Shown: piece after piece, positions 31,321 through 47,823 of the stretch | Layout of the letters: every line of letters starts with the position of its first letter | How positions within the stretch are numbered: position 1 is the first letter of the stretch | Assembly (NCBI RefSeq): GCF_000701805.1 | Contig: NZ_JNJW01000003.1 | Location: 1-64,000, forward strand | DNA length: 64,000 nt | Reading direction: 5' to 3' | Source of the DNA: Mycoplasmopsis iners ATCC 19705 | GTDB taxonomy: Bacteria; Bacillota_I; Bacilli_A; Mycoplasmatales; Metamycoplasmataceae | Made by a program: the position numbers and the translations under genes | Notes under the pieces: model-generated | Database searches by the model: none | Told to the model about the DNA's origin: nothing | Seen by the model: the letters and a program-made list of their open reading frames with translations, nothing else

Positions 31321-33390
31321 ATGAAAAAAAGTTCAAAATTATGATTAATTCTTAGTTCTTTAATTTTTGTGACAGTTGGTGCTTTATCTAGCGTAGCTTA
31401 TTTAATTTATTCTAACTGAAGCAAAGGTTCAATAATAATTAGAGGAAGCAAAGGCAATCTTGACATTAACATTTTAGAAATTGAAGACAATATGTCTGTG
31501 TCAAATAAGTCATTTAAAGAAATAACTTATGATCCTAATTTTCAAATTCAAGATAAAACAAAAAAATTGCTTGATGATTTAAATAAAAATTCAGCTAATT
31601 GAATTAAAGACGAATATTTTTCATACAAAATGGAAAATAATGTTTTAGTGTTGGTCTATACTGACCCAATAAATGGTGTTAAATTCAAAGATCATTCTTA
31701 TGGAACTTATAAAAAAACATTAGATTCTGAAAATGAAAGTGAAGAAATCTTGTCTAATGAAGCAGATAAAAATGAAGAAGTTGAACAAAAACCTAGATTT
31801 CTTTTAGGCAAAGAAGGTTTAGCTCTTTTAGCTAATCATTTTTATGCTAAACAAACTTTCGGACCTGAAATAATGTATTTAGATTCTATAAATATTAATG
31901 ATGCGAGAGTAAGCGCGAGCAATGCTAATGGTCTTTATACACCAAGCACAAAAACAATTTTTTTGAATGGATCATTTGTTGCTGAAAAAGGCTATGAAAT
32001 AGATCAAAAAGTAAAATTTTTAATTCCTGTATTATTCCATGAATATATGCACCATTGAGCTAATTCATATGTTAATTACTATGATTATAACGATCAATTT
32101 ATTCCTGTTTCTTATAGACAAAACCATTCTAAAGCAAGAACTATTAATTATTTTTATAAAGAATTCTATAATGGATTTAAAACTTATTTAAATTTTGCTG
32201 AAAAACCAATAAATGCTAATGAAAACGAATGATTAGATTCAGAAAAAAACTTTATAGGTAGAATTTTAACCACTCAAGAATTGTTTGCCTTAGGCAATTC
32301 AAATAACGCAGCTGAATATCAAAGTATTTACAGCAAAATTTCTAGCTTTGCTAGTTTATATGGCAATCAAGAAAAAATTACATTTAAATATAAAAAAAAT
32401 GAGCTAAACAAATATGTAATTTCTGAATACTCGCCTCAAGACCTGCCTTATTACTATTCAATAGTTGAATTAATTCCGAGAGAATGAACAAAATTTGCTT
32501 ATAAACCTTATTATTCGGTAATGTATGAAACGCCCGCGGCATCATTAAATGATAAAGGCTACTATTTATCACAAAATTACTTTGCTACAGCATATTTAAA
32601 AAACGGAGAAAAGTCAACATACTTTTCAAATAATACTTATGTACAAGATTGAGCAAGAACAAACAATAATGGAATGCCAATTTCAGATAAAACAACAAAT
32701 ATTCAAACATTTGAAAATAATATTTGAAATTATATTATTGCTGAAAGTAAGGAACCGGTTTATAAAGAATTTTACAAAATGTTCTTAAAATCAATGGGAT
32801 TTGGCAAATTGATTTCACAAATGAAGAGTAGAACTGAATGATCATTTATCTCTGGTGAAAATGGAACAGACATTAACATCAATACAGATAATAATGTAAT
32901 TGGCAAGGTTTCTTTAACAGGTTATTTAGATTCAAGCAAATATAAGGCGCTTGTTTTTGTAAAAGATAATGTTAAAAAAATAGTTAATATCAATTATGTG
33001 CCTTTAATAAGATTTAATTCATTTAATAAGCCACAAATTGATGAAAAAATTCATTCAAATCAAATATTAAGACCAAGCGATGTGTTGGATAACATTAATA
33101 ATTTAACTAATAAAAATGACTATATTGCCTATAAAACAGATGAATTCGATATTAAGAACTATACAGGTAGTTATATTTATTTATGAGAAGATGTTAATAA
33201 TAACAATCAAATAGAAAATAGCGAATTAATTAAGCAATTTACTGACCCATTGCCTGATCGACCAATAATTAATTCAGATTCAAAAGAATATATTAATCCG
33301 AATGCAAGTAGTAATATAAGTTTTTCTTGACCTGAAATTGTTGAGGCTGATAGTGACCAAGATGGATTTAATGTTGTTAGAATTGCTTAA
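31321..33390 (+). CDS. Membrane-anchored metalloprotease (HEXXH), MYPU_1760-like
   Basis: 689 residues across TGA codons. The N-terminus has one hydrophobic anchor (LWLILSSLIFVTVGALSSVAYLIY). A zinc-protease motif FHEYMHHW sits near residue 240, preceded by a region mentioning ANHFYAKQTFGPEIMYLDS. The architecture matches what is annotated in mycoplasmas as MYPU_1760 family metalloprotease; that name comes from memory, not from a search. Probably acts outside the cell on host or surface proteins. The C-terminal part (EDVNNNNQIENSELI ... DSDQDGFNVVRIA) looks like a calcium-binding Asp/Asn loop. SD AGAGG upstream, terminator directly after. Confidence 0.75.
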
Positions 33391-33555
33391 CATGAAAAAA
33401 TAATCGGTTCCCCGATTATTTTTTAATTTTAAGATTTCAATAAGTTTCAATCTCAGTTAAAGTTTTTTGATCAACAGGCTTAATGTCATAATGATGAACA
33501 TTATAAGCTGTAATTTCTTCGTCTGGATTTAAAGGATTTCAAACAGTGTAATGAT
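33375..33555. repeat. 181-bp direct repeat, copy 1
   Basis: Identical to 33897-34077. Contains the end of the metalloprotease gene, the terminator hairpin and the last about 46 codons of the downstream potD-like gene in antisense. Read as the target duplication of the element between the copies. Confidence 0.9.
33394..33424. terminator. Terminator (copy 1), serves metalloprotease gene
   Basis: AAAAAATAATCGG, TTCC loop, CCGATTATTTTTT: perfect 13-bp stem. Duplicated at 33917-33946. Confidence 0.8.
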
Positions 33556-33896
33556 CCCGAGTTTCCAAGTTTGAAAGTCTAAAAAAACGAATATGTCTAT
33601 AAAAAAGACATATTCGTTTTTTATGTTTCAAAATTACACACATAAAATCCCGAGTTTCCAAGTTGAATTTACTAAAAAACAGTGATTTTTGGTTTAAAAT
33701 AACAAAACAATTATTACATAAACGAAATTTTTTATTCTTTTTTAATAATTTTTTTGAACAAAATAAAAAATTTTTAAAATAATTTTCATTTTTGATTTTG
33801 ATTTTTTTATGTAAGTAATGATGATTAAAAAATAGTGAATTACCCTATAAATAAGCACTTTATCATTGAAAATGGCATTAAACTTGGAAACTCGGG
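33556..33896. mobile_element. 341-bp mini-element with terminal inverted repeats, IS1634-like ends
   Basis: Starts CCCGAGTTTCCAAGTTT and ends with its exact complement (17 bp). Flanked by identical 181-bp direct repeats. Such long, variable target duplications are known for IS1634-type elements. No transposase inside; mostly AT-rich noncoding sequence. A perfect stem-loop (33582-33622) lies near the left end. A second copy of the terminal motif lies at 33649-33664, so the left 93 bp may be an extra end. Confidence 0.75.
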
Positions 33897-34077
33897 TGTT
33901 AGAATTGCTTAACATGAAAAAATAATCGGTTCCCCGATTATTTTTTAATTTTAAGATTTCAATAAGTTTCAATCTCAGTTAAAGTTTTTTGATCAACAGG
34001 CTTAATGTCATAATGATGAACATTATAAGCTGTAATTTCTTCGTCTGGATTTAAAGGATTTCAAACAGTGTAATGAT
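33897..34077. repeat. 181-bp direct repeat, copy 2
   Basis: Exact copy of 33375-33555; here it forms the real 3' end and terminator of the potD-like gene. Confidence 0.9.
33917..33946. terminator. Terminator (copy 2), serves pot operon
   Basis: Same 13-bp stem as 33394-33424; the TAA stop of the potD-like gene is within the stem. Confidence 0.8.
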
Positions 34078-35656
34078 CTTTAATATCAAATAAATTATTT
34101 ACATATTTAATTTCATATTCAATATGTTTAGCTCATTCTTCATCTGTGAAGTTATCAGGTTTTTCTCATTCTTCAATTGATTTGAAGTATTCTTCACGAA
34201 CGTATTCAACAACTTTTTTGAAAACTGGAGTATACCCCACTGAATCAAAGTTTAAAACAGAGCCTAATTCCAATTTGTCTTCAACCGAATCTCAAGTTCC
34301 GTCGCCTATACCTTGAATAAATGTATCTCTAGCAGCAGAATAAACTTTGTTTTTAACTTCATCAGAAGTGCCTTTAACGATTACTAAACCGTCAACTAAT
34401 AATAAATTGTCTTTTGGTCTTAAATATCTTAATTCACCATCTCTAACATTACTGTTATTGTCATTACCAAAAAACGCGTCAACGGTATCACCATTATAAA
34501 TAATACCCATTTGAATTTCAGACTGCGGGCTAATAATTTTGTCAACTAATTCTAAACCATTTCCAATAAAGTTGATTTTCGAACTGTTCAAAGCATAACC
34601 AGTTGCGTTTTTGATTAAGCTTTCAAATTGATCAATTAATTCTTGGTAATTTGAAGCTCCTGATGTTTGTTGATTAGCAAACATTTCTAATTCTTCAATC
34701 ATTTTGTCTGAAGTTTCAAAATTGTTACCTTTAGCTTTTTCATCTTCGACATGTTTTTTGAATAATTCTATTAATTTATTAGGATCATTGACCTTGTTAA
34801 AGTTTTGTCCTTTACCTGTCGCATAGATTGACACATATTTATTTGCATTCTTGTCTAAACGATAAGCAGAACCATAAATCATATTGTCACGTACTGCGTC
34901 TGTGGCTTCTAAATTATCAAAACCTTCTTCTTTTAAAACTTTTAAAATTGAATAAAGACTAAAACTTCCTGCTTCTCATGATTTGTCTTCAGGTCTTTCT
35001 TCCATTAATTTGTCATAAATTTTCTTTTCTAAAGTTGAAGTGGCTTTAAAATCATATTCAGCGCCGTGTTTTTGGTTTTTTAAATTTAATTTGGCTGGAT
35101 TATATGCAACAACCATATCTTGAGCAAAATATGGTAAAAAGTATTCTCATAAATGAAGAGGTTGCTCATATGCTTTACCATTTTCATCAGTCAATAATTC
35201 ATCATCATATGATGCTAAATGGTTTCAAACACCTTCAGTGTAAATTGATTTTAAAACTTCTTCAAGCGAAGCGTCAGGATTACTTTCAAAAGCTTTTGGG
35301 AATAATTTTTTAAAGTCTAATTTTTCTAATTTACCTTTTTTAATGAGTGTTACAGCTTGTGAATCTGAACCAATACCAGCTACTGCTTTATTGGTTAAGA
35401 TAGCATTTGTAAATTGATTTAAAGTATCAAATTCTTTGAAATCGAAATCTTGATTAATTCTTCTTTTGTGTGAAACATCATCACCATCATTAATGTATTG
35501 TTTGTAATTGTAAAATGATGGTTTGAATTTATGTGAATATTTATAAGTTAATGAAGCTGCTAGAACCCCAACAACAGCAACACCTACTGCTGAATATAAG
35601 AAAGTTTTATTAAGGAAAAAACCTTTTAATTTATTTCAAAAATTAGACTTAGCCAT
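33938..35656 (-). CDS. potD: Polyamine ABC transporter substrate-binding protein (PotD-like)
   Basis: 572 residues, larger than E. coli PotD (about 350). An N-terminal membrane anchor (FLYSAVGVAVVGVLAASLTYKY) without lipobox Cys replaces the usual periplasmic signal. The PotD-like fold is suggested by FDFKEFDTLNQFTNAILTNKAVAGIGSD, QDMVVAYNPAKLNL and MGIIYNGDTVDAFF, with DGLVIVKGT later. It is the last gene of potABCD and overlaps potC by 8 nt. Binds spermidine/putrescine by inference from the operon. Its final 46 codons are duplicated beyond the mini-element. Confidence 0.85.
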
Positions 35657-45498: not shown

Positions 45499-45920
45499 TT
45501 GAACTGTTTCATAGTTGTTTTTGTAAATTCCGCTTAGGCTGATTTTTTAATATTTTTACAACATTAGCCTTGTATAATCTCAAGTTTCCAAGTTAAAAAG
45601 GGATGAAAAAATTGACGCATTGTTAAACGAAATCAAAAAAGAACTTGTTGAAGAACCTAAAAAGAAGAAACTGAGGAATAATTAATTTCAAAAGTAGGCT
45701 ACTTGGATTGCTTTATTAATGACAAATTTGACTAATATGGAAAAAAGAAAATTTTTTCCAGATTTTTTATTGTGCTTTAGCAGACGTCTTTTTTTGTGCA
45801 ATACAATGAAGTTAAGTACTAAAAAAGTACAAAAAATATAAACAAAGAAAGAGAGTGAATGTGAATGATTTAAATTTTTCAAGTTTTAGCATTTAAATTT
45901 GCAGCAGATGAGAGGGTAAA
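45499..45920 (+). other. Intergenic region with left inverted repeat and a coding remnant
   Basis: No complete gene. Contains CTCAAGTTTCCAAGTT (45579-45594), an open stretch running from 45578 to TAA 45685 whose C-terminal end is KELVEEPKKKKLRNN, a short perfect inverted repeat of A/T, and the leader of the next gene. Confidence 0.5.
45578..45685 (+). pseudogene. C-terminal coding fragment beside inverted repeat
   Basis: Open through the inverted repeat: SQVSKLKRDEKIDALLNEI then KKELVEEPKKKKLRNN and stop. No start codon. Basic-acidic tail like that of some transposases, but not identifiable. Confidence 0.3.
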
Positions 45921-46745
45921 GTGAAGATAAACCAACGAGAGGAAATAATATCATTAATCAAAGAACGTGGTCTGGTGACTCATGGTGATATTTCTGTCGC
46001 TCTTTATGGTGATAATAAACACATGCCAAACGTTTATAGTACATTGAAAAAACTTCTTGACTCTGGGGTGGTAAAGAGAACTGGTGATCATCCTTCTTAT
46101 TACTCATTGTCTAGCGACAACTACGAAGAACACAATGTTAATGCGGATAAAAACAAAATATGCTTCTTAGAAATCACAAATGAGTCCATAGAAGAAGTGG
46201 ATGCGGAGGTAGAGGCTACAGAAAACTACGGACGTGAAAACAGATTGATCACTGATTGTTTTAAAAAATATCCAAGTAATACAGATATCGAAACTGTAGC
46301 TTTGAAGATTGGTTTGATTGATATCACAAATTCTACGAATATTTCTAGATATAAAAGATTTATCAGTGTTGTTGAATTAGCGGAAATAATATCATCTATT
46401 CCAAATATTGATGAAAGGATTAAAAAAGGCGATCCAGAAGTTGTAGCGACTATTGCTAGAGCTAACGGAAAGATTAATCTGTTCTCATTTGCAACAAAGT
46501 ATTGTTGTTACCACAACAAGAATCTTTATGGCAGGGATGATTATTCAATATTGGATACTGTGTTGAAAGAGACATTACCTAAGGTGTTCAAAGATATAAA
46601 AAAATCGAATATCCAGCATTGAGTGGATTCATATGACTATAAATCTTATAATGATTTCATCACAAATAAACTTGATGAGCTTGGAATAACTATTCCTTTT
46701 AGAAAGAGGAAATTTGACCATTTTATCTGGTATAAAAATCGATAG
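45921..46745 (+). CDS. Winged-helix protein of the GIY-YIG island
   Basis: 274 residues from GTG 45921 (GAGAGGG upstream; no in-frame ATG). Residues 1-70 look like a winged helix (EEIISLIKERGLVTHGDISV, YSTLKKLLDSGVVKRTG). The C-terminal half has LFSFATKYCCYHN and DDYSILDTVL, resembling a conserved pattern in uncharacterised, often defence-associated proteins (from memory). TGA at 46620 is read as Trp because the frame continues sensibly (VDSYDYKSYNDF) to TAG 46743; one TGG is also used. The next gene starts 13 nt later. Function unknown, perhaps a DNA-binding partner or regulator. Confidence 0.65.
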
Positions 46746-46758
46746 AAGGAAGGCAAAT

Positions 46759-47511
46759 ATGATTAGTGAGTTTTCACAAGAAGTTGCAGAACAATTAAAA
46801 TATTATGTTTATAGATTAATCAATCCTCGAAACGGGCAGACCTTTTATGTTGGAAAAGGAAAAGGCAACAGAGTGTTTCAGCATGTGAAGTGTGCAATCG
46901 ATTACTATGACGGAGCTGAAGGAATCGATGAAGAAGATCCAAATAAGTTCAAAATAATACAAAGCATCAAAGAATCTGGGCTTGAAGTTATACACATCAT
47001 ACAAAGGTGGAATCTGACAGAAAGTGAAGCATTCCAAGTAGAATCTGCTTTGATTGATGCGTATCAAGGGTTGTCAAATATCCAGTCTGGACATCATTCA
47101 GATTTTGGAGTTACAAACGCTGAAGAACTTCAAATGAGATTATCAATGAAAACTTATGATGAACCCACTGATTTTAAGTATCTAATTATAAAAGTCCGTT
47201 CGTGGAGATTAGAACAATTGGAATCTGAATTTCCAACCACTTATAGATATGAGGCAACAAGAAGAGAGTGGAAAATAAGACCAAGATCAGTAAAAGAATA
47301 TAAATATGTATTTTCTGCGACTGACGGAATAGTAAAGGAAGTCTATAAAATAAAAGATTGGTATAGGTCTCCAGATGAAAATTCATCACGATTTGCTTTT
47401 AACGGCGAAATCGCTGAAGAAGAAATAAGGAAGAAATATATCAATACCAGAATCCCAGATACATATTGCAAGAAGGGAATGGCATCTCCTGTTTTATTCT
47501 CAAAGAATTAA
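46759..47511 (+). CDS. GIY-YIG nuclease with C-terminal PUA-like region
   Basis: 250 residues from ATG 46759 (SD AAGGAAGG). GIY-YIG core: YYVYRLINPRNGQTFYVGKG with the two Tyr and Gly, then a basic RVFQHV and a conserved Glu in ESEAFQVESALIDAY. This is the LEM-3-like/COG3680 type. The C-terminal part (YKYVFSATDGIVKEVYKI, later RFAFNGE and SPVLF) resembles a PUA-like fold seen with such nucleases. All four Trp codons are TGG and none is TGA, unlike almost all genes here, which suggests recent transfer from a standard-code donor. Confidence 0.8.
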   Translation: MISEFSQEVAEQLKYYVYRLINPRNGQTFYVGKGKGNRVFQHVKCAIDYYDGAEGIDEEDPNKFKIIQSIKESGLEVIHIIQRWNLTESEAFQVESALIDAYQGLSNIQSGHHSDFGVTNAEELQMRLSMKTYDEPTDFKYLIIKVRSWRLEQLESEFPTTYRYEATRREWKIRPRSVKEYKYVFSATDGIVKEVYKIKDWYRSPDENSSRFAFNGEIAEEEIRKKYINTRIPDTYCKKGMASPVLFSKN

Positions 47512-47823
47512 GAATATAAAAAAACTTTATAGCAAGAAAACTAAAAGTATATGAGCAATCAATCCTTAGTTTCAAAGTTAAAAGCTCAGGATTTTATAGC
47601 ATGTATAGGTTAATTCTATGTGTGTAATTTTAAAACGTAAAAAAACGAATATGTCTTATTTATAGGCATATTCGTTTTTTTAGACTTTCAAACTTGGAAA
47701 CTCGAGATAAATACGTTTCCATTGTTTTCCTGATTTTCCAAGTTGGAAATTCATGAAACAAAAAACACGAAATATGGATTGTCCATATTCCGTGTACAAG
47801 TTTAAATTGTGATTTTTTTATTA
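47512..47823. other. Intergenic region with right element end and fusA terminator
   Basis: No gene. Holds the stem-loop and right inverted repeat of the GIY-YIG island, a palindromic TTTCCAAGTTGGAAA (47744-47758) that may be another end relic, and the fusA terminator. Confidence 0.6.
47759..47795 (-). terminator. Terminator of str operon (after fusA)
   Basis: 14-bp stem ACACGGAATATGGA / TCCATATTTCGTGT (one mismatch), 3-nt loop, then TTTTTTG on the minus strand. Confidence 0.85.

Follow-up and report, generated by a model that had tools for sequence, protein, structure and literature searches.

What are two foreign-looking genes doing in the chromosome of a mycoplasma, and how did they come to lie between repeats of the kind that end insertion sequences (IS)? 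The question arises at positions 45577–47713 of the window, by which we mean the whole 64 000-nucleotide stretch of DNA analysed, from Mycoplasmopsis iners ATCC 19705. The most probable answer, to which we give a probability of roughly 0.7, is that the genes form a recently acquired, two-gene cassette for modification-dependent (type IV) restriction, as judged from homology. The relevant features are as follows.

45577–45600, no strand assigned: left IS1634-type terminal repeat, a scar, its end type (GAGTTTCCAAGTTAAAAAGGG) being shared with the intact IS of contig C2.
45606–45887, forward strand: duplicated host DNA that comprises the rbfA 3' end and the opening codons of a 207-aa gene; copies 85–87% identical lie on contigs C17 and C9.
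45921–46745, forward strand: gene 1, 274 aa under genetic code 4, GTG start; winged helix and conserved all-alpha C-domain (approx. residues 85–274).
46759–47511, forward strand: gene 2, 250 aa; by homology a PD-T4-3/CMoRE GIY-YIG modification-dependent endonuclease, with a C-terminal sensor domain (approx. 131–250).
47590–47713, no strand assigned: right IS/MITE-type end, multi-copy; hairpin at approx. 47638–47682 and terminal repeat at 47683–47708.
33557–33896, no strand assigned: MITE, one end of which matches that on the right of the gene-pair unit; perfect 182-bp target duplication (33375–33556 and 33897–34078).

The limits of the genes depend on the genetic code. TGA specifies tryptophan in this host, and code 4 applies because host genes of the window use TGA and TGG in a ratio of 175 : 6. 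The frame of gene 1 thus runs through an apparent stop at 46622 to 46745, and the extension aligns with a standard-code homologue from an Anaeroplasmataceae contig, tryptophan on tryptophan. The codon of Trp234 is the only TGA in the gene pair. Gene 2 most likely starts at the ATG at 46759, behind AAGGAAGG. Both genes of the initial annotation therefore exist, with revised limits: it had closed gene 1 at 46622 and opened gene 2 at a TTG at 46714.

The pair carries a compositional signature of its own. Its TGA : TGG ratio is 1 : 5 against 175 : 6 in the host (p = 2e-7), its members have the two lowest codon-usage likelihoods and the highest third-position GC among the 38 window genes compared, and the GC content of 45890–47590 is 33%, against 29% for the window. 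The nuclease encoded by gene 2 was not found in the other 59 nearest genomes searched. A standard-code contig of an uncultured member of the Bacillales carries a decayed copy, 95% identical in DNA sequence along 567 bp, and the Anaeroplasmataceae contig carries an intact pair, with 74% protein identity to gene 1 and 74% to gene 2. By these sequence measures the pair is foreign DNA, recently imported; the foreign look noted earlier is borne out by codon usage and by the 95%-identical standard-code remnant. We infer a standard-code member of the Bacillota as donor, and with it the direction of transfer. The single TGA codon fits adaptation following recent transfer. A recent passage of genes across a genetic-code boundary can thus be read from these comparisons.

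Gene 2 can be assigned firmly, from its sequence, to the PD-T4-3/CMoRE family as a full-length member. It matches the PADLOC PD-T4-3 model along its whole length (residues 2–248, E = 1.5e-61) and PHROG 5356 (E = 1e-58), and its Pfam match is LEM-3-like GIY-YIG. The only PDB entries found by sequence are CMoRE chains (E approx. 4e-42; 1e-78 in a profile search), phmmer aligning residues 2–250 with 9u75 at E = 5.5e-42. The GIYxY-YIG tyrosines Y16, Y18 and Y30 are present together with R38 and E95; all are invariant in the family alignment, and the active-site residues align with those of 9U7U and 9U75. The acidic lid is represented by DEED at 57–60, within an insert. CMoRE, the new name of PD-T4-3, is a type IV endonuclease acting on DNA that contains 5hmC or 5ghmC; it combines the GIYxY-YIG motif with a C-terminal sensor and assembles as a tetramer (PMC12923530). 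A lid of four consecutive acidic residues blocks the cutting of ordinary DNA, and lid mutants are toxic (PMC12923530). PD-T4-3 restricts T-even-type phages in a native E. coli host (PMC12409345). With the E. coli enzymes (APEC O1 and O157:H7; PDB 9U7U and 9U75) gene 2 shares full-length homology at approximately 35–40% identity, the motif, the catalytic arginine and glutamate, the acidic lid and the C-terminal sensor domain. It differs in its code-4 mycoplasma host and in the conserved second gene that precedes the nuclease, whereas the published systems are single-component. The earlier call of a GIY-YIG nuclease was thus correct, given the intact active site and the whole-length match to CMoRE chains. 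Its companion proposal of modification-sensing defence is upheld to the extent that gene 2 is, by sequence, a full-length homologue of a proven type IV enzyme.

The proposed mechanism follows that of the E. coli enzymes. An oligomer of gene 2 would bind DNA carrying a modified base (5hmC or 5ghmC in the E. coli case) through the C-terminal domain, and the bound DNA would outcompete the acidic lid. The GIY-YIG domain would then cut invading phage or plasmid DNA, and unmodified host DNA would be spared. A point against this account is that, to our knowledge, no phages bearing 5hmC are known for mycoplasmas. Because the published contact to the 5-hydroxyl is made by a main-chain oxygen (PMC12923530), the base recognised is not predictable from sequence. 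No mention of PD-T4-3 in this mycoplasma host group was found in the literature searched, and the locus extends a newly characterised family of 5hmC restriction enzymes to mycoplasmas. Homologues of CMoRE also occur in jumbo phages. Serratia phage Moabite, Klebsiella phage N1M2, Pseudomonas phage OBP and others encode near-full-length relatives with 30–36% identity, annotated as homing nucleases or endonucleases; these might be used against rival phages.

The sensor domain of gene 2 had been described as possibly PUA-like. In the AlphaFold2 model, residues 131–250 are confident (approx. 88 on average) and the N-terminal half is poor, so that only the C-terminal domain is interpreted here. Foldseek places CMoRE structures at the top (8e-19), followed almost exclusively by YTH domains, the N-terminal domain of Thermococcus gammatolerans McrB (6p0f) and TTHA0113 (2dp9, 1wk2), which we take to belong to the ASCH/PUA group, at E = 0.01–0.6. 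YTH is an EVE-like reader of the PUA superfamily, and the Thermococcus McrB domain is a YTH domain that reads 6mA (PMC7641849). Neither Pfam nor the PDB yielded a PUA family that matches the domain in sequence. The proposal gains weak support from the predicted fold, where these are the best matches beyond CMoRE, and none from sequence; the signal is weak but coherent, and a PUA-like sensor is treated as a lead. Like the PUA-superfamily enzymes VcaM4I (EVE-HNH) and YTH-McrB, gene 2 joins a nuclease to a putative modified-base reader with a faint structural likeness to YTH and McrB-N, and it departs from them in having no sequence-level match to PUA families (Pfam, PDB). The authors of the CMoRE study found no structural homologue of the sensor (PMC12923530). 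If confirmed, the YTH/PUA-like signal would tie this domain, published without fold relatives, to the main superfamily of modified-base readers.

Gene 1 had been described as a winged-helix protein. The AlphaFold2 model (pLDDT 89) agrees and adds an all-alpha C-domain of approximately 190 aa. Among the PDB fold matches listed for the model, most are winged helices, including winged-helix regulators, and none has E < 0.001; phmmer found no relative in the PDB, and a viral fold library returned only winged-helix-type matches. The winged helix by itself best accounts for profile matches to Csa3, FUR and TrmB, the last two weak. No Pfam model covers the C-domain (Pfam, 22 members), and matches of family members to DUF6308 fall below the curated cut-off (best E = 0.0012). 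The C-domain family occurs in 14 of the 395 genomes of the class, one of them with a winged-helix match only, in 99 Enterococcus plasmids and, by an alignment-based scan, at 27 loci of a viral collection; scans of the same collection with the gene 1 or gene 2 protein alone gave no relative. Residues invariant in the 22 members include K193, C195, H198, D212, D266 and W270. The N-terminal partner of the C-domain varies: a winged helix, DUF7669 (1e-15), DUF7662, by eye an integrase-SAM-like segment, or none. So do its neighbours, which comprise CMoRE, an RNase_T exonuclease (L019) and, recognized by eye only, genes with PD-(D/E)XK-like motifs (L034, L027, L036) and an HNH-like gene (L022).

The genes with PD-(D/E)XK-like motifs (L034 4858–5871, L027 2055–3134 and L036 4651–6276) lie directly downstream of gene-1-type proteins and have no Pfam match; the motifs read, for example, PDAT...VVETK and PDIDFG...LLCELK. 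They may be undescribed nucleases that share a gene-1-type helper. Since it adjoins several kinds of probable nuclease, the helper domain may mark other undescribed defence operons.

Gene 1 would be an accessory DNA-binding protein of the nuclease, serving in extra recognition or recruitment, or in autoregulation. A role in DNA recognition or recruitment is about an even bet. It is favoured over simple repression since invariant polar residues are retained in the helical domain, which adjoins several kinds of nuclease-like gene, while the N-terminal DNA-binding module is exchanged. A mollicute analogy for a winged helix that reads modified DNA is provided by the Acholeplasma fusions Ahi29725I and Apa233I, which likewise combine a winged helix with a GIY-YIG nuclease. 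These enzymes are modification-dependent, their winged helix reading 6mA in GATC (PMC11037411). Compared by domain make-up, they have the winged helix fused to the nuclease and contain no CMoRE sensor; here winged helix and nuclease are encoded by separate genes, and gene 1 has the additional helical domain. A bolder and rather unlikely extension would make gene 1 the founder of an unrecognized helper family, in which an all-alpha domain with swappable DNA-binding heads is common to CMoRE and other nucleases and restriction is two-component, the helper reading or processing the modified base.

The principal alternative, which we hold to be the less probable account though a serious one, makes gene 1 a mere transcriptional (auto)repressor of a potentially toxic nuclease, in the manner of restriction controller proteins, and gene 2 an ordinary single-component CMoRE. 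The winged-helix fold, the weak FUR and TrmB matches, the regulators among the fold matches and the position of gene 1 directly upstream of the nuclease all agree with it, and the toxicity of CMoRE lid mutants suggests that tight control would help. CMoRE is also described as single-component and works alone in E. coli (PMC12923530). A plain repressor would, however, have no need of a C-domain with invariant lysine, cysteine, histidine and aspartate residues, and in several relatives this domain persists where the winged helix is missing or replaced. A selfish, homing-type nuclease, or a decaying pair carried as a functionless passenger, is improbable: the homing-nuclease annotation of jumbo-phage relatives, the frameshifted and truncated Bacillales copy and the setting among IS scars would suit it, but both frames are intact, the change of one tryptophan codon to TGA has left the frame open, the active-site residues and sensor domain are complete, and the characterized members are defence enzymes. 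Very improbable is a C-domain acting as an HhH-GPD-type DNA glycosylase that excises the modified base ahead of nuclease cutting. Brig-type glycosylases are a known theme in defence, and the invariant residues K193 and D212 show the 19-residue spacing of K249 and D268 in OGG1, but in the other branch of the gene 1 family the spacing is approximately 14. The candidate was rejected, since hhalign against the Nth/HhH-GPD profile gave a probability of 0.3%, no HhH or glycosylase family appears in the Pfam matches of the 22 members, and there is none among the 50 fold matches listed for the full-length model. A search of the class for OGG (PF21790) and DUF6308 returned no matches, and its controls were likewise without a match, so that this empty outcome carries no weight.

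The reading of the pair as a two-gene restriction cassette draws on its recurrence. The initial annotation had made co-occurrence of the two genes one of its checks, and the same order does recur: CMoRE is immediately preceded by gene 1, read from the same strand, at four loci, namely the window, the Anaeroplasmataceae contig (L009/G339, one contig present in two collections), G372 and the decayed Bacillales copy (L016). The intergenic gap is 13 nt in the window, L009 and L016. CMoRE is present in 11 of the 395 class genomes, three of which have the partner; with so few carriers of either gene, the likelihood of chance adjacency is negligible. Gene 1 is not essential to the CMoRE family, because most CMoRE loci found here lack it. 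A small CMoRE tree places G372 beside a gene that has no partner (support 0.84), which implies either repeated loss or gain of the partnership or at least one loss. The conserved upstream gene, in the window and at three other loci, is at odds with a single-component system, but that trait describes the published set of CMoRE systems and is not an enzymatic requirement, so that the locus is classed as a CMoRE variant. On sequence grounds this two-gene variant of a known defence nuclease is new, and it adds a conserved partner missed by the single-component description.

Two further genes touch on this distribution. Another mycoplasma genus has a diverged CMoRE-like gene (L137 1459–2262, G115:C1) whose frame contains two TGA codons; it stands apart in the tree, adjoins an HsdS-like gene and seems to have been acquired independently, in a second event. 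Not far downstream of the Anaeroplasmataceae pair, a gene with a GIY-YIG-like stretch (GVYALYFENKLMKIGKA; L009 6250–7164) suggests a small defence cluster.

There remains the manner of arrival. The inverted repeats reported to match the mini-element at 33556 are genuine IS1634-type ends. The arms at 45577–45600 and 47685–47708 are 24 nt long and 88% complementary, and the right end is 93% identical to the mini-element end near 33.55 kb over 96 bp; the match is not a chance one, because the right-hand segment of approximately 124 bp (47590–47713) recurs genome-wide at up to 93% identity. The further claim of a mobile unit bounded by these ends found no support. No target duplication was found around the gene-pair unit and no transposase within it. 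On the left the unit ends like the C2 element and on the right like the MITE, the two ends being from different IS subfamilies. Nor is its left interior foreign: the stretch at approximately 45606–45887 copies the host rbfA 3' end and the start of the 207-aa host gene, and foreign DNA begins only at approximately 45885. For these reasons the repeats look like scars of IS rearrangement. IS-mediated rearrangement, rather than transposition of the unit, is likely to have joined the imported DNA to them, and the pair from a standard-code Bacillota would in this way have acquired its IS1634-type ends. In the closest relative found (G009) the neighbourhood is rearranged, obg-rsuA being followed by deoxynucleoside-kinase-like genes with fusA elsewhere, and a clean empty site was not found there.

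The IS1634/MITE family itself is recently active in this host, as the duplications around the C2 element and the MITE indicate. The intact C2 element (L141 877–2737, G000:C2:68876–70736) measures approximately 1.86 kb, encodes a 552-aa DDE transposase and has a perfect 119-bp target duplication; it is a recent insertion and possibly the source of transposase for the MITEs. Long target duplications, of 8–514 bp, are known for IS1634 (PMC2266710). The C2 element and the MITE conform to the family in DDE transposase, size (approx. 1.9 kb) and long duplications (119 and 182 bp), unlike the gene-pair unit, which has end-like repeats without duplication or transposase. Approximately five near-full MITE copies are present in the genome. 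The 340-bp copy in the window (33375–34078 with its duplication) lies between two convergent genes, both of which stay intact because the 182-bp duplication copies their 3' ends.
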